37,848 nt of DNA from Candidatus Rokuibacteriota bacterium (GTDB lineage Bacteria > Methylomirabilota > Methylomirabilia > Rokubacteriales > CSP1-6): contig QHSI01000138.1 in NCBI GenBank assembly GCA_003221515.1, positions 1 to 37,848 on the forward strand, read 5' to 3'. Below, piece after piece: positions 5,473-36,540 of the stretch. The first letter of the stretch is position 1. Each line of letters starts with the position of its first letter. The translations under genes and the position numbers were made by a program. The notes beneath the pieces were generated by a model. That model saw only the letters and a program-made list of their open reading frames with translations. It was not told the DNA's origin and did no database searches.

Positions 5473-6726
<1,254 letters not shown>

Positions 6727-6881
6727 CCCGTTCACTTCAGAGTTCTGCGTCGGACTTCCTTGGCCTCGGTCTCGGCGGGTCATCAGCTGGGCTCCGGGCG
6801 GCTGGCGCCGCAAGCAAAGTGAGTGTCGGTTAAGCTTTCTGCCTGATTTACGGCGGGGTTAGAACGACAACGAACGGCGCT

Positions 6882-6910
6882 ATCTTGCCATCCCGAGGCC
6901 TCACTGTCAA
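6882..6910 (-). promoter_or_regulatory. Predicted rho promoter
   Basis: Perfect -35 TTGACA (6910-6905), 17-nt spacer, weak -10 CAAGAT (6887-6882; AAGATA one base further is an alternative). It lies just past the surA-like stop and would give rho a leader of about 150 nt. Confidence 0.6.
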
Positions 6911-6917
6911 CGATTTT

Positions 6918-8000
6918 TCACAATTGCCCATCCAGGCGCACGTCGATGATCGCACGCTGCTTGATCTCCTTGAGCCAGGTATCGAGACGGGCGTCGAACT
7001 TTTCCCTGAACAGGATGTCCCGGATCTGAGACTTGACGCGGTTCAACCCCTCGCCTTCCAGCGCCTCCTTCGATTCGAGGCGAAAGATGTGGTAGCCGAG
7101 CGCCGACCGGTACGGCGCGGAGATCGCCAGCGGGCTGAGAGAGAGGATCTGGGACTCGATGTCCTGGGCGAGCTCGCCGCGCTTGAGCGGCCCAAGGTCG
7201 CCGCCGTCCCGGGCGCTGGCGTCCCGCGAATGCTGGCGCGCCAGCTCCGCGAAGTCGGCCCCCTGGAGCAGCTGGGACCGGAGCATGTCTGCACGGATGC
7301 GCGCCGACTCCCAGCCCACGTCGGTATTGCCGCCCTCGGGCAGGATCAGGATGTGCCGCGCGTGGTAGGCCAAGCCGGTCTCGAGCTTGACGCGATTCGC
7401 CTCGAGATATTGCATCACTTCCGCCTCGGTGACCGACACGCGGAGCCTCACCTTACGGCCGACGATCCGGTTGCGGCGGAGCTCGTCCCGGATGCGCTTC
7501 TTGGCCGCATCGAGGGTGAGCCCCTGCGCCTTGAGCATCGCCTCGAGCTCGTCCTTGTCCTTCAGGTTCATCCGCTTGATGCGATCGGCCAGCTCTTCGT
7601 CGACCTCGGCGTCGTCGATGACGATCTTTTCGCGCTCGGCCTCCTGGATCTGGAGCCGGTTGTCGATCATACGGGTGAGGAACTGCTGGACGAGCGCGTC
7701 CGATGCCTCCACCGCGCGCTCGCGGTTCTCGTACCGGTAGACCGCGATCGCCTCCTGAAGCTCCGAGAGCGTGATCGCGTCGTTGTTGACGACGGCCAGC
7801 ACTCGGTCGGTCACGCTCTCATCGGACGGCGCCACCGTCCTCGGCACCGTGGGCGGCGACGCGGCCGGAGTGGCCGGAACCGACGTGGTCGGCCCTGTCT
7901 TGTCCGGAGGCTCCTCGCCGAGGTACGGCACCCACTGAGGCATCGAGCATCCGCCCAGGGCGAAGACCAGCAGCGCGGTGACGACGAGGCGCCGGCTCAC
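6918..8000 (-). CDS. SurA/PrsA-type peptidyl-prolyl isomerase lipoprotein
   Basis: Extracytoplasmic foldase and chaperone. 360 residues from GTG 8000, whose GTGA overlaps the mfd stop. The N-terminus VSRRLVVTALLVFALGGCS is a lipoprotein signal with lipobox LGGC (Cys18), followed by a Pro/Thr/Ser-rich linker to about residue 55. A SurA-type N domain follows (VLAVVNNDAITLSEL), then a charged helical region, one parvulin PPIase domain (YHARHILI through YHIFRLESKE) and a C-terminal helix. E. coli SurA has two parvulin domains and is soluble in the periplasm; this protein has one and is lipid-anchored, so it sits between the SurA and PrsA types. Substrate is unknown. Confidence 0.88.
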   Translation of the reverse strand: MSRRLVVTALLVFALGGCSMPQWVPYLGEEPPDKTGPTTSVPATPAASPPTVPRTVAPSDESVTDRVLAVVNNDAITLSELQEAIAVYRYENRERAVEASDALVQQFLTRMIDNRLQIQEAEREKIVIDDAEVDEELADRIKRMNLKDKDELEAMLKAQGLTLDAAKKRIRDELRRNRIVGRKVRLRVSVTEAEVMQYLEANRVKLETGLAYHARHILILPEGGNTDVGWESARIRADMLRSQLLQGADFAELARQHSRDASARDGGDLGPLKRGELAQDIESQILSLSPLAISAPYRSALGYHIFRLESKEALEGEGLNRVKSQIRDILFREKFDARLDTWLKEIKQRAIIDVRLDGQL

Positions 8001-11000
8001 GCCCGGCCCAGGTCGTCGAGCAGGCAGAGCAGCGAGTCGCGGACGCGCGGCCATTCGCCGCGCTCGACGGTCGCCTCGAGGGTGAACTCGCGCTTCATCT
8101 TGAGCCGACCACGGCTCCGCTGGATGATGCGAACGAGCCGCTCGGGCTCGAGCGTCGTTCCCGGCGAGAACGTGACCAGTGCTTTGCCCTCGCCGGCTTC
8201 GATCTTCTCGACGCCCACCGTGCGCGCCGCCACCCGGATGCGGACGATGTCCAGCAGCTGCTCGGCCGGGGGCGGAAGTGGACCGAACCGGTCGGCCAGC
8301 TCGGCGCGGAGATCAGCGACCTCCGCATCGCTGGCCGCTCCAGCGAGGCGCTTGTAGAGCGCGAGTCTCTGGTTGACCTCTGGAACATACTCGTCCGGCA
8401 AGAACCCTTCGACGCTCACGCTGATCACGGGATCGATCGTGGCAGCCGTCGGGCGGCCGGCCAATTCTCGCACGGCTTCGGCAAGAAGCTTGGAATAAAG
8501 ATCGTAGCCGACCGCGGCGATGTGGCCGTGCTGCTGGGCGCCCAGGAGGTTGCCCGCCCCCCGGATCTCGAGGTCCCGCAGCGCGAGCTTGAACCCGGAG
8601 CCGAGCTCGGTCAGCTCCTGGAGGGCCCGGAGGCGTCGCTGTGCCTGCTCGTCCACCCGCCCGTCCGCGGGAACCAGCAGATAGGCGTACGCCTGCTGGC
8701 GCTCCCGGCCCACCCGCCCGCGTAGCTGGTAGAGCTGGGCCAGGCCGAAGCGATCGGCGCGATTGACGATGATCGTGTTGGACGCGGGAATGTCGAGGCC
8801 GGACTCGACGATCGCCGTCGAGACGAGCACGTCGGCCTGGCCCGTGACGAACTTCACCATCGTGGCCTCGAGCTCGCGCTCCTTCATCTGGCCGTGGCCC
8901 ATGATCACGCGCGCGTCGGGCACCAACTCCTGAACGAACTTCACCATCGAGGGAAGCGACTGGACGCGGTTGTGGACGAAGAACACCTGGCCACCGCGCT
9001 CCAGCTCGCGCTCGAGCGCCTCCTTGATGACCGCCTTGCTGAAGCGCCGGATGACCGTCTCGACCGGGAGCCGATCCAGCGGCGCGGTCTCGATCACCGA
9101 CATGTCCCGCACGCCGGAGAGCGACATGTAGAGGGTTCGCGGGATGGGCGTGGCCGTGAGGGCGAGCACGTCCACCGAGGCGCGCAGCTGTTTCATCCGC
9201 TCCTTGTGGGCGACGCCGAACCGGTGCTCCTCGTCGATGACCATCAGGCCAAGGTTCTTGAACGTGACGTCCTTCGACAAGAGCCGGTGCGTGCCGATCA
9301 CGACGTCGACGGTGCCCTGCCGCAGGCCCTCGACGACCGCCTTCTGCTCCTTGGGCGAGCGGAAACGCGACAGCAGCTCGACCTTGGCCGGAAACGGCGC
9401 GAAGCGGTCGGCGAACGTCGACCAGTGCTGCTGGGCCAGCACCGTCGTCGGCACCAGCACCGCGACCTGCAGGCCGTCCGCCACCGCCTTGAAGGCGGCG
9501 CGGAGCGCGACCTCCGTCTTGCCGTACCCGACGTCGCCGGCGACGAGGCGGTCCATCGGCCGGCCCGATTCCATGTCGCGCTTGGCATCCTCGATCGCCC
9601 GAAGCTGGTCCGCCGTCTCCTCGAACCGGAACGACGCCTCGAACTCGCGCTGCCACGGCGTGTCCGTCCCGAACGCGTGGCCGCCGGCCACCGCGCGCTG
9701 GGCGTAGAGGCGCAGCAACCCTTCGGCCATCTCGCGTAGCGCGGCGCGCACCGACTCTTTCACGCGCTGCCAGGACGCGCCCCCCAGGCGGTCGAGCCGC
9801 GCGGCGTCGGTGTCCGCGCCGAGATATTTCGAGATGCGATCCAGACGCTCGACCGGCAGGTAGAGGCGGTTGGCCTCGGCGTACTCGAGCAGCAGAAAGT
9901 CCCCTTCGCGATCGCCGATCTTCATCGTTTGTAGACCGAGGTAGCGGCCGAGCCCGTGGTCCTCGTGGACGACGACGTCGCCGATCGCCAGATCGGTGAA
10001 CGCCGTGAGCTCGGCGCCGCGCTGGTACTTCGGCCGGCGGAGCGACCGCCGCCGCGAGCCGAAGACCTCGCCCTCGGTGAGCACGATGACGCCGAGTGCC
10101 GGGATCGAAAATCCAGCGGAGCAGTCTCCGACGACGATCGCCAACGACTCCGCGCCGTCGAGCGACGGCGCGATCGCCGCCTCGACGTCGTGCTCGCGCA
10201 GGATCTGGCGCACGTGCTCCGCCTGACGGTCGTCGGCGGCGGTGAGTCGCACGCGGAAACCCTCGGCGCGCCAGCGTCCGAGGTCCGCGGCGAGCTCCTT
10301 GAAGCGACCGGTGAAGCGCGAGACCTCGAGCGTCTCCAGCGCGAATTCCGTCGCGGCGGCGGCGCCCGCGGCGGCGCTGGAGGTGCCGGCGACCAGGCTC
10401 AGCTCGACGAGCTGACGTTCGCCGATCCGCTCGCGGAGCGACGGGCCGGCTGTCGCTTCCTCGGTCGGGCCGTCGAGCAGCTTCGGCAGGTCGACGATGA
10501 CGGGCGCCGACGCCGGCAGATAGTCGAACAGCTGCGCGTCCCCGGGCTCGGGCGCCTCGTCCTCCGCGGCCAGCGGCAGGACGAGCAGCTCGTCGAGCGG
10601 CCCGACGGAGCGCTGCGACGTGGGGTCGAACAGGCGGATCGACTCGATGTCGTCGCCGAAGAACTCGATCCGGGCCGGGCCAGCCTGGCTCGGCGAAAAG
10701 ACGTCGACGATGCCGCCGCGCAGGCTCCACTGCCCGACGGCGACGACCGTCTCCACGCGCTCGTAGCCGCAGCGCTCGAGCGCCTCGAGCAGCAGCTCGC
10801 GATCCAGCCGGTCGCCGGTCGAGAGCCGGAGCGTACGCGACGAGAACTCCGTGGGGCTCCAGAGCCGCGCGTCCAGGGCCAGAGGCGTGGCGACCACGGT
10901 GACGGGCTCGGCGACGGCCAGACGCCTCGCGATCGTCGCGCGCTCGGCATCGGCCTCCCGATGCTGGCCACCGCGCCAGAGCCTGGGCTCCGGCTGCGGG

Positions 11001-11221
11001 AACTCGAACACCGAAGCGCCGAAGAGGCGGAGATCCTGCGTCCAGCGGTGCGCGTCGGCCATGCTGCCGACGACCACGAGCGCGGGGCGTGGATGGGTCT
11101 GCAGGAGCTCGGCGACGACGAGCGGGCGGGCGGCTCCGGTGAGGCCGGCGACACGGAGACAGACTTCACCCTCGGCGAACGATTTCGCCAGCGCATCAAA
11201 AGCCGGCCACTCTCTCAGCAT
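7997..11221 (-). CDS. mfd: Transcription-repair coupling factor
   Basis: DNA translocase that removes RNA polymerase stalled at lesions and recruits UvrA. 1074 residues from ATG 11221 (MLREWPAFDALAKSF). Domain order: UvrB-like module (to about 300), degenerate module, RNAP-interacting domain (LAIGDVVVHEDHGLGRYLGL, about 411-430), helicase lobes with GDVGYGKT (562-569), DEEH (663-666) and LTATPIPRTLYMSL, then the C-terminal TRCF domain. The frame stays open to 11323, but the added residues come from repeat DNA and are unlikely to be translated; GTG 11257 is an alternative start. Downstream it is coupled to the SurA-type gene by GTGA. Confidence 0.97.
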   Translation of the reverse strand: MLREWPAFDALAKSFAEGEVCLRVAGLTGAARPLVVAELLQTHPRPALVVVGSMADAHRWTQDLRLFGASVFEFPQPEPRLWRGGQHREADAERATIARRLAVAEPVTVVATPLALDARLWSPTEFSSRTLRLSTGDRLDRELLLEALERCGYERVETVVAVGQWSLRGGIVDVFSPSQAGPARIEFFGDDIESIRLFDPTSQRSVGPLDELLVLPLAAEDEAPEPGDAQLFDYLPASAPVIVDLPKLLDGPTEEATAGPSLRERIGERQLVELSLVAGTSSAAAGAAAATEFALETLEVSRFTGRFKELAADLGRWRAEGFRVRLTAADDRQAEHVRQILREHDVEAAIAPSLDGAESLAIVVGDCSAGFSIPALGVIVLTEGEVFGSRRRSLRRPKYQRGAELTAFTDLAIGDVVVHEDHGLGRYLGLQTMKIGDREGDFLLLEYAEANRLYLPVERLDRISKYLGADTDAARLDRLGGASWQRVKESVRAALREMAEGLLRLYAQRAVAGGHAFGTDTPWQREFEASFRFEETADQLRAIEDAKRDMESGRPMDRLVAGDVGYGKTEVALRAAFKAVADGLQVAVLVPTTVLAQQHWSTFADRFAPFPAKVELLSRFRSPKEQKAVVEGLRQGTVDVVIGTHRLLSKDVTFKNLGLMVIDEEHRFGVAHKERMKQLRASVDVLALTATPIPRTLYMSLSGVRDMSVIETAPLDRLPVETVIRRFSKAVIKEALERELERGGQVFFVHNRVQSLPSMVKFVQELVPDARVIMGHGQMKERELEATMVKFVTGQADVLVSTAIVESGLDIPASNTIIVNRADRFGLAQLYQLRGRVGRERQQAYAYLLVPADGRVDEQAQRRLRALQELTELGSGFKLALRDLEIRGAGNLLGAQQHGHIAAVGYDLYSKLLAEAVRELAGRPTAATIDPVISVSVEGFLPDEYVPEVNQRLALYKRLAGAASDAEVADLRAELADRFGPLPPPAEQLLDIVRIRVAARTVGVEKIEAGEGKALVTFSPGTTLEPERLVRIIQRSRGRLKMKREFTLEATVERGEWPRVRDSLLCLLDDLGRA

Positions 11222-11240
11222 CCCCGCGAAGATCTCTACC

Positions 11241-11790
11241 CTATCACGGCACTCCACGCTTGCCGGAGGCGGACGGGCGGCGGGGGTCGTGGGTGAGAGG
11301 GGGTCACCGAGACCACGCGGCACGCGTCCGCTTCCCCTCGGCGGCTGGGCTCCATCCGGGCACGCCTCGCCCGTCGCCGCTTGTCGGGAACGGGTCCTGG
11401 TGACCCCCTCCCACCCACGACCCCCACCGCCCGCCCGTCTCCCCTCCTCGTGGAGTTCCGCGGTCGCTCTTGGTGCTTCGCGCCGCCGACGTTGAGCACG
11501 CGATTGTCACGGCGATTCTTGCTTAGCCTCACGCCCGTCTCCGCTCGACGTCAGGAGTTTCGCGATTCACCGATCGTGCTCTCGCCCGCCGACGTTGAGC
11601 GCGATTGTCACGGTGATGCTTGCTTAGCCTCACGCTCGTGCGCCGACGCGCGCGACCTCCCGGGGTGGTCGAAGGGCTCGGGCGATGTCGCCAGAGGCTC
11701 GGCGGCGAGGGTGGGACGGGGGCTGGGAGCTGGGGTAGTGGCGGGGGATCGCGAGGACCCGTTCCCGACGAGCGGCGACGGGCGAGGAGA
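11241..11790. repeat. Nested direct and inverted repeats between mfd and rex
   Basis: This stretch holds no gene apart from the repeat-derived 3' end of rex. Four relations were seen by eye. (1) 11400-11463 is an inverted copy of 11244-11307, roughly 80% identical around a 92-nt centre. (2) 11365-11408 is an inverted copy of 11744-11787, about 40 of 44 positions. (3) 11485-11539 is a direct repeat of about 11586-11640, with a 2-nt gap and a few mismatches. (4) The (2) copy near 11787 lies inside the rex reading frame. No transposase or target-site duplication was found. It looks like a cluster of non-coding dispersed elements, perhaps MITE-like. Confidence 0.8.
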
Positions 11791-32871: not shown

Positions 32872-33534
32872 TCAGAACGCGCCGAACTTCTCGTAGGCGG
32901 CCAGCGGCGTCATGCCGCGCCGGACCGCGGTGCGCACCTTGGTCTCGGTGCCGACCAGCTTCTCGCATCGTCCCAACACCTCGTGGGCGGCGCGGCGGGG
33001 GATGACGACGACGCCGTCGAGATCGCCCACCACGATGTCGCCGAGGCTCACCCGCACGCCGCCGATCGTCACCGGCTGGCCCCAGTCGGCCACTCGCCAG
33101 CGCGGGACCGAGTCCTGGGGCGTTCGGTAGCGCACGAAGGTCGGAAAGCCCTGGCGCACGATCGCCGCGGTGTCGCGGGTGGCGCCGTCGATCACCGCGC
33201 CCCGCACCCGGCGGGTACGGCACCAGGACGCGCTGAGCTCGCCGAAGTGCGCGGCGACGTTGTCGTGGGCGGCCACCACCAGCACCGAGTCCGCCGGCGC
33301 CGCCCCCAGCATCGCGAGGAAGCGCCGCAGCGTCTGATCGCGCTCGCGGGGATTGCCGCTGTGCGAGCGCCCGCGCACGGTGAACGCGTAGCCGGCGGTC
33401 CGCATGGAGTCGGCGAGCGGCTGGATCGTCGAGGGCAGCGTCTGGCGGCGGAGACCCATCTCGTCCATCACGTCGGTGATCGCAGCCGTGTAGATCTTCG
33501 CGAAGCGGCGCGGCAGGTTGTCGCTCGGACTCAT
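32872..33534 (-). CDS. RraA-like / HMG-aldolase-family protein
   Basis: 220 residues from ATG 33534 (MSPSDNLPRRFAKIYTAAI). The fold includes ITDVMDEMG, SVLVVAAHDNVAAHFGEL and GAVIDGATRD, whose Arg-Asp pair binds the divalent metal and pyruvate in 4-hydroxy-4-methyl-2-oxoglutarate aldolases, then GDIVVGDLDGVVVIP. Members are often misnamed demethylmenaquinone methyltransferase; known activities are retro-aldol cleavage, oxaloacetate decarboxylation and, in E. coli RraA, RNase E inhibition. It is 5 nt after the FAD oxidoreductase and last in the PKS operon, suggesting a step on a keto-acid or ring substrate, which is inference. Confidence 0.88.
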   Translation of the reverse strand: MSPSDNLPRRFAKIYTAAITDVMDEMGLRRQTLPSTIQPLADSMRTAGYAFTVRGRSHSGNPRERDQTLRRFLAMLGAAPADSVLVVAAHDNVAAHFGELSASWCRTRRVRGAVIDGATRDTAAIVRQGFPTFVRYRTPQDSVPRWRVADWGQPVTIGGVRVSLGDIVVGDLDGVVVIPRRAAHEVLGRCEKLVGTETKVRTAVRRGMTPLAAYEKFGAF

Positions 33535-33539
33535 CGGCG

Positions 33540-34736
33540 CTAGCGCCCGAGGATACCCTTGACGAGCGCGCGCGGGGGGACGAAATCGCCGATCACGCCG
33601 AGCAGCAGGTCGAGCACCCGCTGGCGCCGCACGAGGACCCGCGCCGCCAGGTTGGCGAGCACGCGATTCCCGACGACCACGCGGAGCGCGCGGGTCACGC
33701 GCTCCTTGTCCGCGAACGCCAGGCGCCGCGCGCGCTGGTAGCCCGCGAGCCCTTGCGCGGACACGTCGCCGTGGCGCAGCGCGTGCACGGCCGCGGTCAC
33801 CGCGAGCTCGGCGGACCGGAGACCGCTGAAGATACCCTCGCCGGTGAACGGATCGAAGAAGCCCGCGGCGTCGCCGACCAGGAGCACGCCGCCCGTGCGG
33901 GGCGGGTCCACGACGTACGCCAGCGGCCCCATCGCGCGCACCGGCGCGACTCGCCGCGCGCCGGCGACCCGCCGGGCCAGGTGGCGCAGCTGCTTCACGC
34001 GCGCGTCGAAGAACGCCTCGAGGCGCCCACTCCACGGCGCCGCGTGGGCCATCGGCACCACGACGCTGAGGTTGGCGCGCCCGGGGTCGATCGGATTGAG
34101 GATCGCGTAGTCGGGCGGGTCGACGAAGATCTCGCCGTAGCGTCCGAGGTCGGCCAGGTCCTCGACGTAGGTGACCAGCGCCATCCGCTGGAGCCGGTGG
34201 GCTCGCCGGAGCCCCAGGCGCTGGGCGACGACCGAGGCGCGACCGTCGGCGGCGATGGTGAGCGGTGCGCGAAGGGTCAGCCGGTGGTGATCGTCGTCGA
34301 TCGCCTCGACGCCCTCCACGCGACCGCCCGTGACGATCAGATCGGTAACGCGCATGTGCTCGGCGAAGTCGACGGGGAGCGCGCGCACGCGGTCGACCAG
34401 GATCGCGTCGAGCGCCTCCCGCGGGATCGCCATCGCCTGTTCCCGATACGGCCGCCAGGGGCCGATCCGACGATACTCGCCGACGAGCGCCGTGCCGTCG
34501 GGCGCGGTGATCCGCATTCCCGCCAGCGGGCGCGCGACGGCGTCGACGGCTTTGAGCGCGCCGAGACGATCGAGCAGCCGCGGCACCTCGGGGCTCAGGT
34601 ACTCGCCGCAGATCTTCGGCCGCGGGAACCGCGCGCGGTCGACGAGACGCACGGAGACGCCGTGCTCGGCCAGGAGGATCGCGGTGGCGGCACCGGCGGG
34701 CCCGGCGCCGACCACGATCACGTCGGCGGCGGTCAC
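33540..34736 (-). CDS. FAD-dependent oxidoreductase, geranylgeranyl-reductase/hydroxylase type
   Basis: 398 residues from GTG 34736; GTGA overlaps the methyltransferase stop. FAD-binding DVIVVGAGPAGAATAILLAE at the N-terminus, FPRPKICGEYLSP (the CGE box of geranylgeranyl reductases and related hydroxylases), and GVLLVGDAAGFFDPFTGEG, the second FAD motif. In the phenolic-lipid operon srsABC of Streptomyces griseus, the third enzyme is a flavoprotein hydroxylase acting on a methylated alkylresorcinol. The order PKS-methyltransferase-flavoprotein is the same here, so ring hydroxylation or alkyl-chain reduction is proposed. Confidence 0.88.
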   Translation of the reverse strand: MTAADVIVVGAGPAGAATAILLAEHGVSVRLVDRARFPRPKICGEYLSPEVPRLLDRLGALKAVDAVARPLAGMRITAPDGTALVGEYRRIGPWRPYREQAMAIPREALDAILVDRVRALPVDFAEHMRVTDLIVTGGRVEGVEAIDDDHHRLTLRAPLTIAADGRASVVAQRLGLRRAHRLQRMALVTYVEDLADLGRYGEIFVDPPDYAILNPIDPGRANLSVVVPMAHAAPWSGRLEAFFDARVKQLRHLARRVAGARRVAPVRAMGPLAYVVDPPRTGGVLLVGDAAGFFDPFTGEGIFSGLRSAELAVTAAVHALRHGDVSAQGLAGYQRARRLAFADKERVTRALRVVVGNRVLANLAARVLVRRQRVLDLLLGVIGDFVPPRALVKGILGR

Positions 34737-35428
34737 GAGAGGACCGCCAGCATCCGGCCCAGCGCCGGATACTCGTGGATCGTCAGCCGATGCGCGCCCG
34801 CGCGGGCGGCCAGCACCCGCAGCTCGTCGCTCGAGTACGAGCGCCGCACCGACAGCGGACCGTCGTGGCGCGAGATCGGATGGCAGCAGAAGAGCCGGGT
34901 CGCCAGCCACACCAGGCCGAGCGAGAGGCGACGGCGCAGGAGGTCGTTCACCACGACGGCGATCGCGGCGGCCGCGGTCATCTGCCGAAGACCCTGGACC
35001 GCCTGCTCGGGCTCGAGGTGATGGAGGGTGAGTCCGGTGGTGACGATGTCGGCGGCGCCGGCGCGCAACGGCAGCGCGGCCGCGTCCCCCTGCACGAGGA
35101 AGACTTCGGGATAGCCCGCGGCCACGGGCCGCGCGAGCGCCAGCACCGCCCCGTCGCGCTCGACGACCACGACTCGAATCGCCCGGCCGCTCCGCCGCGC
35201 CCACTCGGCCAGCCGCACCGCGAACGCCGCGGCGCCGCCGCCGACGTCGACGACGCGCAGCGTGCGCTCCCGCGCGACGCCCGCCGCCAGGCGACGGATC
35301 TCGCGCAGGCTCAACGCGTAGCCGCCGAACCACGTGTTGAGGCGGTCGACGTCGCCGAGCGTCGCCGCGAGGTCGGCGGCGCCGATGTCACCGTCCAGGA
35401 CCTCCAGCGCGCCTTCGGCCCGGCGCAT
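34733..35428 (-). CDS. Class I SAM-dependent methyltransferase
   Basis: 231 residues from ATG 35428, which shares one base with the PKS stop (TGATG). SAM motif I is VVDVGGGAAAFAVRLAE; acidic VVERD follows at the end of strand 2; GDAAALPLRAGAADIVTTGL is motif II. The late string CHPISRHDGPLSVRRSYSS resembles methyltransferases commonly found beside bacterial type III PKS genes. It probably O-methylates the PKS product, by analogy with SrsB, though the substrate cannot be read from the sequence. Confidence 0.88.
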   Translation of the reverse strand: MRRAEGALEVLDGDIGAADLAATLGDVDRLNTWFGGYALSLREIRRLAAGVARERTLRVVDVGGGAAAFAVRLAEWARRSGRAIRVVVVERDGAVLALARPVAAGYPEVFLVQGDAAALPLRAGAADIVTTGLTLHHLEPEQAVQGLRQMTAAAAIAVVVNDLLRRRLSLGLVWLATRLFCCHPISRHDGPLSVRRSYSSDELRVLAARAGAHRLTIHEYPALGRMLAVLS

Positions 35429-36453
35429 CACCACCGGAGCAGCGCGCCCTCGGCGGCGAAGCCAGGACCGAGGGCGATCATCACGCCCCAGTCGCCCGGG
35501 ATCGGCGCCTCGTGACGGAGCGTCTCGTGCAGCACGAACAGGATCGTGGCGGACGACATGTTGCCGTAGTGCCGGAGCACCGTGCGCGAGTGGCCCACCT
35601 GTGCCTCGGAGAGCTCGAGCAGCGCGCACGCGCGATCGATCACGCGCCGTCCCGCGGAGTGCAGCACCCAGTGCGCGATGTCCTCCCGCTTGAGGCCCTG
35701 GGTCGTCATGAGGATCGCCGCCATCTCCCCCATCATGCCGGCGCCGATGCGCCGCACGTCCTTGGAGAGGATCACACGCGGCCGCCCGCCCGGGTACTCG
35801 AAGCCCATGGCGTCGAGGTGCTCGGGCCGGAAGAGCGTCCGGTGCGCGACGATCGAGGGCCCGGCGCCGTCACCGGCCACGGCCAGGGCGCCGGCGCCGT
35901 CGGCGAAGATCGCGTGGGCCACGGCGCTCTCGAGCCGGTCGTCCAGGAAGTAGGCGGCCGAGCAGATCTCGACGGCGACCACGAGCGCGCGGCGCGTCCG
36001 CGACGCGGCGACGTAGTTCGACGCCTGCTGGAGCGCCACCATCGCCGACGCGCACCCGGTGTCGCCCACGTGCACGCGCTGGACGTCGGGGCGGCAGCCG
36101 AGCCGCCCGATGAGGTGTGCGTCGAGGCTCGGGGTGAGGCGTCCGGTGCACGTGGTCGTCGCCAGGAAGTCCACGTCGCGCGCGTCCCAGCCCGCGTCCG
36201 CGAGCGCACGGCGCGCCGCCGACTCGCCGAGCTCGAGCGCGCCGGCGCGGAAGCGCGCGTTCAGCTCGTCCACCGACTCGTTCGGACGGAAGGTGGCGCG
36301 GTCGATACAGAGGTTGCGGCCCTCGATGTCACTGCGGGTGAAGAATCCCCGGCGCCCCTCGTCACGATAGCCGGCGAGCGCCAGCAGCTCGGCCTGCGTG
36401 AAGCGATTCGGCGGCGTCGCGGTGGCGACCGCCACGATCTTGGGGGCCGGCAT
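35428..36453 (-). CDS. Type III polyketide synthase (chalcone/alkylresorcinol synthase family)
   Basis: Homodimeric iterative condensing enzyme that extends an acyl-CoA starter with malonyl-CoA and cyclises it. 341 residues from ATG 36453, fixed by AGGAGG 4 nt upstream. The catalytic triad is complete: Cys134 in VHVGDTGCASAMVAL, His265 in HWVLHSAGRR, Asn298 in HYGNMSSATILF. The His-Asn spacing of 33 equals that of plant chalcone synthase. Asn rather than a FabH-type pair in the last motif and MGEMAAILMTTQGL support type III PKS over KAS III. First gene of a four-gene operon; likely product a pyrone, resorcinol or resorcylic acid with a lipid chain. Confidence 0.93.
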   Translation of the reverse strand: MPAPKIVAVATATPPNRFTQAELLALAGYRDEGRRGFFTRSDIEGRNLCIDRATFRPNESVDELNARFRAGALELGESAARRALADAGWDARDVDFLATTTCTGRLTPSLDAHLIGRLGCRPDVQRVHVGDTGCASAMVALQQASNYVAASRTRRALVVAVEICSAAYFLDDRLESAVAHAIFADGAGALAVAGDGAGPSIVAHRTLFRPEHLDAMGFEYPGGRPRVILSKDVRRIGAGMMGEMAAILMTTQGLKREDIAHWVLHSAGRRVIDRACALLELSEAQVGHSRTVLRHYGNMSSATILFVLHETLRHEAPIPGDWGVMIALGPGFAAEGALLRW

Positions 36454-36468
36454 CGATCCTCCTCGCAC

Positions 36469-36502
36469 TTCACGCATCGAGTAAATTTCACGCATCGAGT
36501 AA
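36469..36502. repeat. 18-bp direct repeat in the PKS / carbonic anhydrase divergent region
   Basis: TTCACGCATCGAGTAA occurs at 36469-36484 and again at 36487-36502, spaced 18 nt start to start. It lies 16 nt upstream of the PKS start and 38 nt before the carbonic anhydrase start, where regulation of either gene would act. On the minus strand the unit contains ATGCGTGAA in the PKS frame, so extra in-frame ATGs arise upstream. Confidence 0.9.
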
Positions 36503-36540
36503 GATGAGGGCACTCCGAGGATACTGCGAGGGTCCAGCCC

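Follow-up and report, generated by a model that had tools for sequence, protein, structure and literature searches.

What does a member of the phylum Methylomirabilota make with a type III polyketide synthase (PKS) whose gene is followed by those of a methyltransferase and a flavoprotein, and does the product belong to sporadic secondary metabolism or to core physiology? The question is raised by a 37,848-nucleotide (nt) stretch of contig QHSI01000138.1 (hereafter the window), from the 5.1-Mb, 95% complete genome of an uncultured soil bacterium of Candidatus Rokuibacteriota, in which genes for the PKS, a class I S-adenosylmethionine-dependent methyltransferase (MT), a flavin adenine dinucleotide (FAD)-dependent oxidoreductase and an RraA-like protein follow one another. 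The host is a Rokubacterium of the phylum Methylomirabilota; by name, the relatives of its PKS belong first to Candidatus Rokubacteria/Rokuibacteriota (92% PKS identity in isolate AR31) and then to NC10 bacteria and Candidatus Methylomirabilis. We find that the three-gene PKS-MT-FAD core is real and conserved in this phylum, and we consider it probable that the operon makes a methylated, oxidized phenolic of the resorcinol type, which would in turn probably be lipophilic.

Results

The PKS-MT-FAD core is conserved across the phylum

A match to the window PKS at E≤1e-60 is present in 76 of 95 genomes of the phylum and in 49 of the 53 that are at least 90% complete and at most 5% contaminated; this cut-off also lets in one paralogue of 40% identity, in genome G002, which has the orthologue too. 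Among 59 relatives, 53 have a PKS match of at least 55% identity, and the enzyme is about as widespread there as the menaquinone enzyme MqnC (over its cut-off in 52 of 59). Of 52 loci read with tblastn, 9 were excluded because less than 2.6 kb follows the PKS there, which left 43 in which gene order could be assessed. In 40 of these 43 loci, the genes follow one another on one strand in the order PKS-MT-FAD; the three exceptions (L079, L082 and L083) have PKS and MT, with no FAD match in the stretch read. The initial annotation had made its operon depend on a four-gene order kept among relatives: the PKS-MT-FAD part of that order is indeed kept, whereas the RraA part is not, as detailed below. 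Close spacing of the genes is itself not conserved. As measured from tblastn alignment ends, which only approximate the true gene ends, the PKS-MT distance ranges from an overlap to about 240 nt and the FAD-RraA distance from 5 nt to about 2.9 kb (a PKS-MT figure of 287 nt at L058, the product of a split MT alignment, was left unused).

Four good-quality genomes have no PKS orthologue (G016, G045, G048 and G054). In two of them, G048 and G054, a PRK06202-like MT adjoins a type III PKS of another kind (28–32% identity), as if the function had been replaced. At locus L182 of G016 (contig C120, positions 5682–7012), PKS residues 1–43 run directly into the FAD gene, the remaining PKS and the MT being absent through a deletion or an assembly error; the locus is intact in G094 (L185), of the same genus. 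In another Rokubacterium (L144, positions 6527–11527, outside the 43-locus count), the PKS match falls into two pieces about 2.1 kb ahead of the MT, the result of an insertion, a frameshift or an assembly error. A second, 39% identical type III PKS of Rokubacteria, found at L084 (contig C71 of G002) and L148, groups with DpgA (100/99); no relative of the MT or FAD gene turned up next to it when the remaining window genes were used as tblastn queries.

The synthase is assigned to the type III PKSs

The PKS gene (positions 35428–36453, minus strand) encodes 341 residues. Its catalytic triad, with codons at 36054–36052 (Cys134), 35661–35659 (His265) and 35562–35560 (Asn298) as computed from the start at 36453, is complete, as had been claimed, and invariant in an alignment of the window enzyme with 57 selected relatives (58 rows); in alignment, its three residues also match those of Pks18, Pks11 and a plant enzyme. 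Pfam recognizes the N and C domains of chalcone/stilbene synthases (PF00195, 52.8 bits; PF02797, 61.3 bits; cut-offs 27), and the family motifs GNMSS and GPG are present (YGNMSSA and ALGPGFA); ACP_syn_III_C outscores both domains on this protein (71 bits, cut-off 26.6). An AlphaFold2 model (mean pLDDT 93.3) has Pks11 (4jap) as its top solved structure among the matches listed (Z 49.4, 1.5 Å over 338 residues, 33% identity). No KAS III entry occurs among the best 50 structure matches listed, an observation not usable as evidence.

In a midpoint-rooted tree of 48 rows, selected from among the collected loci and others, the window PKS falls into an 18-row clade (100/99) whose further members are 16 enzymes from Methylomirabilota and one from Bryobacteraceae (51% identity), and no characterized enzyme is a member of this clade among the rows compared. 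Within families, enzymes pair at 100/100 (f5, f7, f8 and f9), while the forks between families are weak. Support is low, too (94/65), where the clade attaches to the type III PKSs other than the DpgA group, so that any sister group named for it would be tentative. Two KAS III paralogues of the window genome branch off jointly with the plasmid-borne L175 (99/95), whose joining them was flagged as a long-branch effect. A KAS III identity of the window enzyme is rejected by the triad alignment, the tree and the structure match; the clustering with KAS III that would have told against the initial annotation is not seen in the tree. Judged by its sequence, its place in the tree and its predicted fold, the enzyme is a type III PKS.

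The tailoring enzymes

The MT gene (34733–35431, minus strand) starts with GTG and overlaps the PKS stop by 4 nt; with the alternative ATG at 35428, the overlap would be only 1 nt. The FAD gene (33540–34736, minus strand) has a GTG start and a 4-nt overlap with the MT stop, and the RraA-like gene (32872–33534, minus strand, 220 residues) begins 5 nt past the FAD stop. All four genes are thus arranged head to tail exactly where they had been annotated.

The MT matches four class I methyltransferase families of Pfam, including PF13649/PF08241, and no isoprenylcysteine carboxyl methyltransferase (ICMT) family at E≤1e-3; its best NCBIfam model is PRK06202. The FAD protein matches FAD_binding_3 in Pfam and, in NCBIfam, best TIGR02032 (GG-red-SF), of the geranylgeranyl-reductase-like superfamily. 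The same two NCBIfam models come top, always below their curated cut-offs, in the window, in the Synechococcus cluster L160 and at locus L072 (G044) of family f5, which includes Ca. Methylomirabilis; L160 is called hid-like from its gene order and organism, the Cyanobium HidA and HidB sequences themselves standing outside the comparison.

Seven plasmid loci were hand-picked from 185 matching records. On plasmid pSBC2-3 of Caballeronia sp. SBC2 (L175), a divergent PKS, a PRK06202-like MT and a GG-red-SF FAD gene are followed by genes for an acyl carrier protein (ACP) and a ketosynthase, which may be the source of an ACP-bound starter. In the PKS-MT-FAD set of a Deinococcus proteolyticus plasmid (L172), the MT is over the PRK06202 cut-off and the flavoprotein is closer to monooxygenase/UbiH-type than to GG-reductase models.

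YceI genes in sister operons and menaquinone genes

Each of five proteins encoded between MT and FAD (families f5, f8 and f9) carries a YceI Pfam domain over the cut-off. A profile built from five loci, three of which share their contigs with L066, L069 and L071, finds a match (E≤1e-5) right after the MT in 6 of 6 loci of f7–f9, with L067, L070 and L077 independent of the profile; FAD follows YceI in five of the six, and L070 ends before FAD. The window genome has a single YceI gene, on a different contig. YceI lipocalins have been found holding octaprenylphenol, octaprenylphosphate or ubiquinone-8 (PMC9113575). Since such proteins bind lipid phenols and quinones and sit in the sister operons, the YceI gene after the MT is a new clue that supports a lipophilic phenol or quinone as the product.

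The window genome also has MqnE and MqnC genes, both over their cut-offs and adjacent (G000, contig C36, 1507–4727), together with three UbiA-family genes. A gene of PF02621, the MqnA/MqnD family, is present in 58 of the 59 genomes; the window genome has one only, while many relatives have a second, and it may have lost or replaced one gene of the futalosine pathway. From this gene content, a menaquinone route is likely in the window genome. A polyketide as the sole quinone was judged unlikely with these genes present, the single PF02621 gene limiting what can be said of the completeness of the pathway; a polyketide quinone would be an additional one.

The RraA-like gene

The RraA-like protein (PF03737) keeps the Arg-Asp pair of its family and the acidic residue 21 positions earlier (E99-X20-R120-D121). 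By alignment ends, its gene lies within 165 nt of FAD in 20 of the 22 f1 loci with both; in the remaining two (G030 and G023) the gap reaches 1 to 3 kb, about 1.1 kb in one and about 2.9 kb in the other. At L100 the distance is about 0.9 kb. It was not found in 8 of 30 f1 loci with a FAD match, 7 of which extend at least 1.4 kb past FAD, nor in any of 11 loci of other families with at least 3 kb after FAD. Counted by genome, an orthologue (at least 70% identity) is present in 24 of 35 in f1, downstream of FAD on the PKS contig in 22, on a contig with a PKS fragment in G034, and on another contig in G001, where the PKS contig ends just past the PKS. Nine f1 genomes carrying the PKS have no RraA match at E≤1e-20, and other families have matches only in G037 (60%; on a different contig from the PKS, beside aminotransferase and transporter genes) and in G052 and G053 (35–39%). 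Linkage in f1 is no proof of shared function, because the whole carbonic anhydrase-PKS-MT-FAD-RraA-M23-nuoL block is widely syntenic in that family.

Scores against NCBIfam models remain below the cut-offs (LigK, 64.9 versus 304.5 bits; the RNase E regulator RraA, 25.9 versus 136). The HMG/CHA aldolase described in PMC5065237 uses a catalytic Arg-123 and the metal ligands Asp-124 and Glu-199. Its Arg-Asp pair is kept in the window protein as R120 and D121, while the counterpart of Glu-199 falls on T197, with E196 adjacent. The E99-X20-R120-D121 motif suggests that the protein may still carry out class II chemistry on 2-oxo acids, as an aldolase or a decarboxylase. The menaquinone-related name 'MenG' was set aside, being an old name on PDB 1nxj, whose Pfam family is aldolase/RraA. 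Most likely, the RraA-like protein is an accessory neighbour, which occupies this position in only part of family f1, with a separate activity of the 2-oxo-acid aldolase/decarboxylase type.

Intergenic region and flanking genes

A divergent gamma-carbonic-anhydrase-like gene lies upstream of the operon, and the operon promoter is presumably within the intergenic region between the two (36454–36540); a consensus scan of the operon region for promoters and terminators found none. The sequence TTCACGCATCGAGTAA is directly duplicated (two copies, 36469–36502) between the carbonic-anhydrase-like and PKS genes, and its second copy was seen in none of 12 intergenic stretches of relatives. A ATACTGCG stretch near the carbonic-anhydrase start is common to all 12 of these, and GAGTAAGATG to 8 of the 12. 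On its downstream side, the operon faces a convergent gene for an M23 peptidase, and a gene of the YnfA family is found there as well; the long frames beyond them we take to be complex I subunits, by recognition and without a family search.

Discussion

In the pathway that we propose, the type III PKS would condense an acyl starter with malonyl-CoA units and cyclize the chain to an aromatic ring. The class I MT would then methylate the ring product and the FAD enzyme would hydroxylate or oxidize it, as has been described for the hierridin enzymes HidA and HidB, with which the two share their families. In several sister lineages, the YceI lipocalin encoded in the operon would possibly bind or carry the product. 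The near-universal presence of the PKS in the phylum suggests for the product a core role, in the envelope, as an antioxidant or in redox reactions, and not that of a sporadic secondary metabolite.

Several observations weigh against a lipophilic resorcinol made in this way. The tailoring enzymes score below the curated cut-offs of their best models (MT against PRK06202, 119.4 versus 243 bits; FAD protein against TIGR02032, 146.9 versus 158.8 bits), and the PKS rows of hidABC and the planctomycete operons fall into another branch (100/98, 24 rows), outside the window's clade. Of 11 f5 loci, no more than 2 give a match to the YceI profile, one of them weak (36 bits), and no YceI frame was found in the window or in any of 34 loci from the taxonomic order to which it belongs (3 of which end just past the PKS). 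The PKS was not found in two f9 genomes, G062 and G063, which scored as 100% complete and 7 and 10% contaminated. Finally, there is the active-site pocket, compared by alignment only. The position of ArsB Trp281 was placed here via Trp230 of Pks11, as the ArsC structure did not appear among the 60 structure matches listed. Phe is found at this position in all 18 rows of the window's clade (Phe218 in the window, codon 35802–35800 from the start at 36453), while 20 of the remaining rows have Trp, among them Pks11 and 13 rows of the hierridin-like, planctomycete and allied kinds. Chalcone synthase (CHS) positions 196, 197 and 256 are Ala, Ala and Phe in the window enzyme, as in DpgA; in the other rows from Methylomirabilota, positions 196 and 197 are occupied by Ala, Ser or Thr. 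On this alignment, the aromatic residue at the Trp281 position argues for ring formation, and, given the DpgA-like pocket, the starter may be long or short.

These residues bear directly on two rival explanations. If the PKS lactonized its chain rather than closing an aldol ring, the operon would be an alkylpyrone pathway. The resorcinol-linked Trp is indeed replaced by Phe, and the closest solved structure among the matches listed, Pks11, has a PDB title naming methyl-branched alkylpyrones. However, PKS11 is counted among the resorcinol formers in PMC5916927, where position 230 of MMAR_2474 is equated with the ArsB Trp and this Trp is given as conserved in PKS11. Moreover, according to PMC6274091, Trp at this position favours resorcinols and it is the Gly of ArsC that gives pyrones, whereas all 18 clade rows have an aromatic residue. 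The genes for a ring-acting MT and FAD enzyme are conserved beside the PKS as well, and an alkylpyrone product thus appears quite improbable. The pocket also recalls DpgA, the 3,5-dihydroxyphenylacetyl-CoA synthase, a malonyl-starter enzyme. Were the window PKS to load malonyl- or acetyl-CoA likewise, the product would be a small, non-lipid phenol, methylated and oxidized to serve as a pigment, signal or cofactor. DpgA is the best NCBIfam model for the window PKS (238.9 bits), CSAAY and Phe218 are as in the DpgA of L169, and the window's HSAG resembles the HSGG of DpgA, not HPGG. Yet the score is far below the DpgA cut-off of 425 bits, the same model also comes top for the distant PKS of L086, and the rows of DpgA, joined by L148, make up a clade apart (100/99). 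The dpgA of L169 adjoins DpgB, DpgC and aminotransferase genes, whereas none of these kinds occurs among the four scanned neighbours of the window operon, and YceI in the sister operons suggests a lipophilic product. We regard a short starter as unlikely.

Two further alternatives concern the fate of the product rather than its scaffold. A polyketide quinone could carry electrons in respiration, as has been suggested for pkqABC of Mycobacterium and Streptomyces, whose operon encodes the same three activities (PMC9927152); this would narrow both the product and the role in the lipophilic resorcinol pathway favoured here, and the probabilities given to the two overlap, since that product could take the form of a polyketide quinone. 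Near-universal presence of the PKS and the binding of ubiquinone-8 by YceI proteins (PMC9113575) agree with it, and alternative quinones could matter in the anoxic, nitrite-driven methane oxidation of Ca. Methylomirabilis (PMC8163242). On the other hand, menaquinone genes are present (MqnC, the MqnA/MqnD family and, in the window genome, MqnE), and PMC5916927 describes pkq as a homologue of srs, whose methyltransferase is of another family than the window MT. A respiratory polyketide quinone seems rather unlikely. The initial annotation had, in addition, given the RraA-like enzyme a fourth step, acting on the polyketide or on a by-product of the pathway. Its tight linkage to FAD in most f1 loci with both, its place downstream of FAD on the PKS contig in 22 of 24 f1 genomes with an orthologue and its preserved motif are in keeping with such a step. 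Against it stand the f1 genomes that have the PKS and no RraA match, the few and weaker matches in other families, the distances of about 1 to 3 kb in G030 and G023 and about 0.9 kb in L100, and a wide synteny in which linkage alone says little; besides, the substrates of the HMG/CHA aldolase that has been studied are 2-oxo acids, not resorcinols (PMC5065237). With the gene missing from many loci and distant in two, the case for an added step is weak, and we think a four-step pathway decidedly unlikely.

Type III PKS clusters are mostly viewed as secondary metabolism. The class of pathway proposed here is known; what is wider than the first reading of the window showed is a near-universal operon of a phylum, with an uncharacterized PKS clade. 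By extension, and only as a tentative proposal that is possible without being expected, the phylum, including the nitrite-dependent methane oxidizer Ca. Methylomirabilis, might depend on an undescribed polyketide-derived lipid phenol or quinone with a core function in the membrane, either as an antioxidant or in electron transport, which would be made by the phylum's own PKS clade and, in several lineages, be served by an operon-encoded YceI carrier. If a lipid phenol or quinone is indeed the product, the membranes of Methylomirabilota, nitrite-dependent methanotrophs included, hold a component that we did not find described in the open-licence PMC literature, where the papers retrieved for Rokubacteria with type III polyketides carry neither term in title or abstract and nothing was found for T3PKS with Methylomirabilota. 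Enrichment cultures of Ca. Methylomirabilis exist (PMC8163242).

Among known systems, srsABC of Streptomyces griseus had been taken as the model for this operon, and this has not been borne out. The srsABC and pkqABC operons resemble the window in combining a type III PKS, a methyltransferase and an oxidizing enzyme. However, the SrsB encoded by an operon 51–63% identical to S. griseus srs is described as an ICMT (PMC6669644), whereas the window MT is of class I, and srsABC was rejected as a homologous system on this ground; the Azospirillum cluster L170 (PKS-ICMT-SDR) is an example of the ICMT type in our set. Thus, a type III PKS in a conserved PKS-MT-FAD operon stands from the initial annotation, its srsABC model is not supported, and its additional RraA step is left weak; the membrane phenolic lipid or redox quinone that it proposed may still be the product. 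The hidABC operons of Cyanobium/Synechococcus and the planctomycete operons share with the window the PRK06202 family of the MT, the GG-red-SF flavoprotein and a type III PKS. The window order PKS>MT>FAD equals hidC>hidA>hidB, one of the two hid gene orders described (PMC8086630), although among 21 loci outside the phylum MT precedes PKS in 16 and the order PKS>MT>FAD occurs in 2. In Corynebacterium glutamicum, hid-type planctomycete operons are reported to yield long-chain alkylresorcinols, and among the genes of the 'S. ferox' PKS operon is one for a putative lipid/isoprenoid-binding protein (PMC10896814). The synthases themselves differ, the window PKS having Phe218 and HSAG where the hid/planctomycete type has Trp and HPGG. 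It therefore appears, from sequence comparison, that the nearest match is the hierridin-like hidABC set rather than srsABC, and that the window shares its tailoring pair with the hid-type operons while its PKS lies outside the HidC clade.

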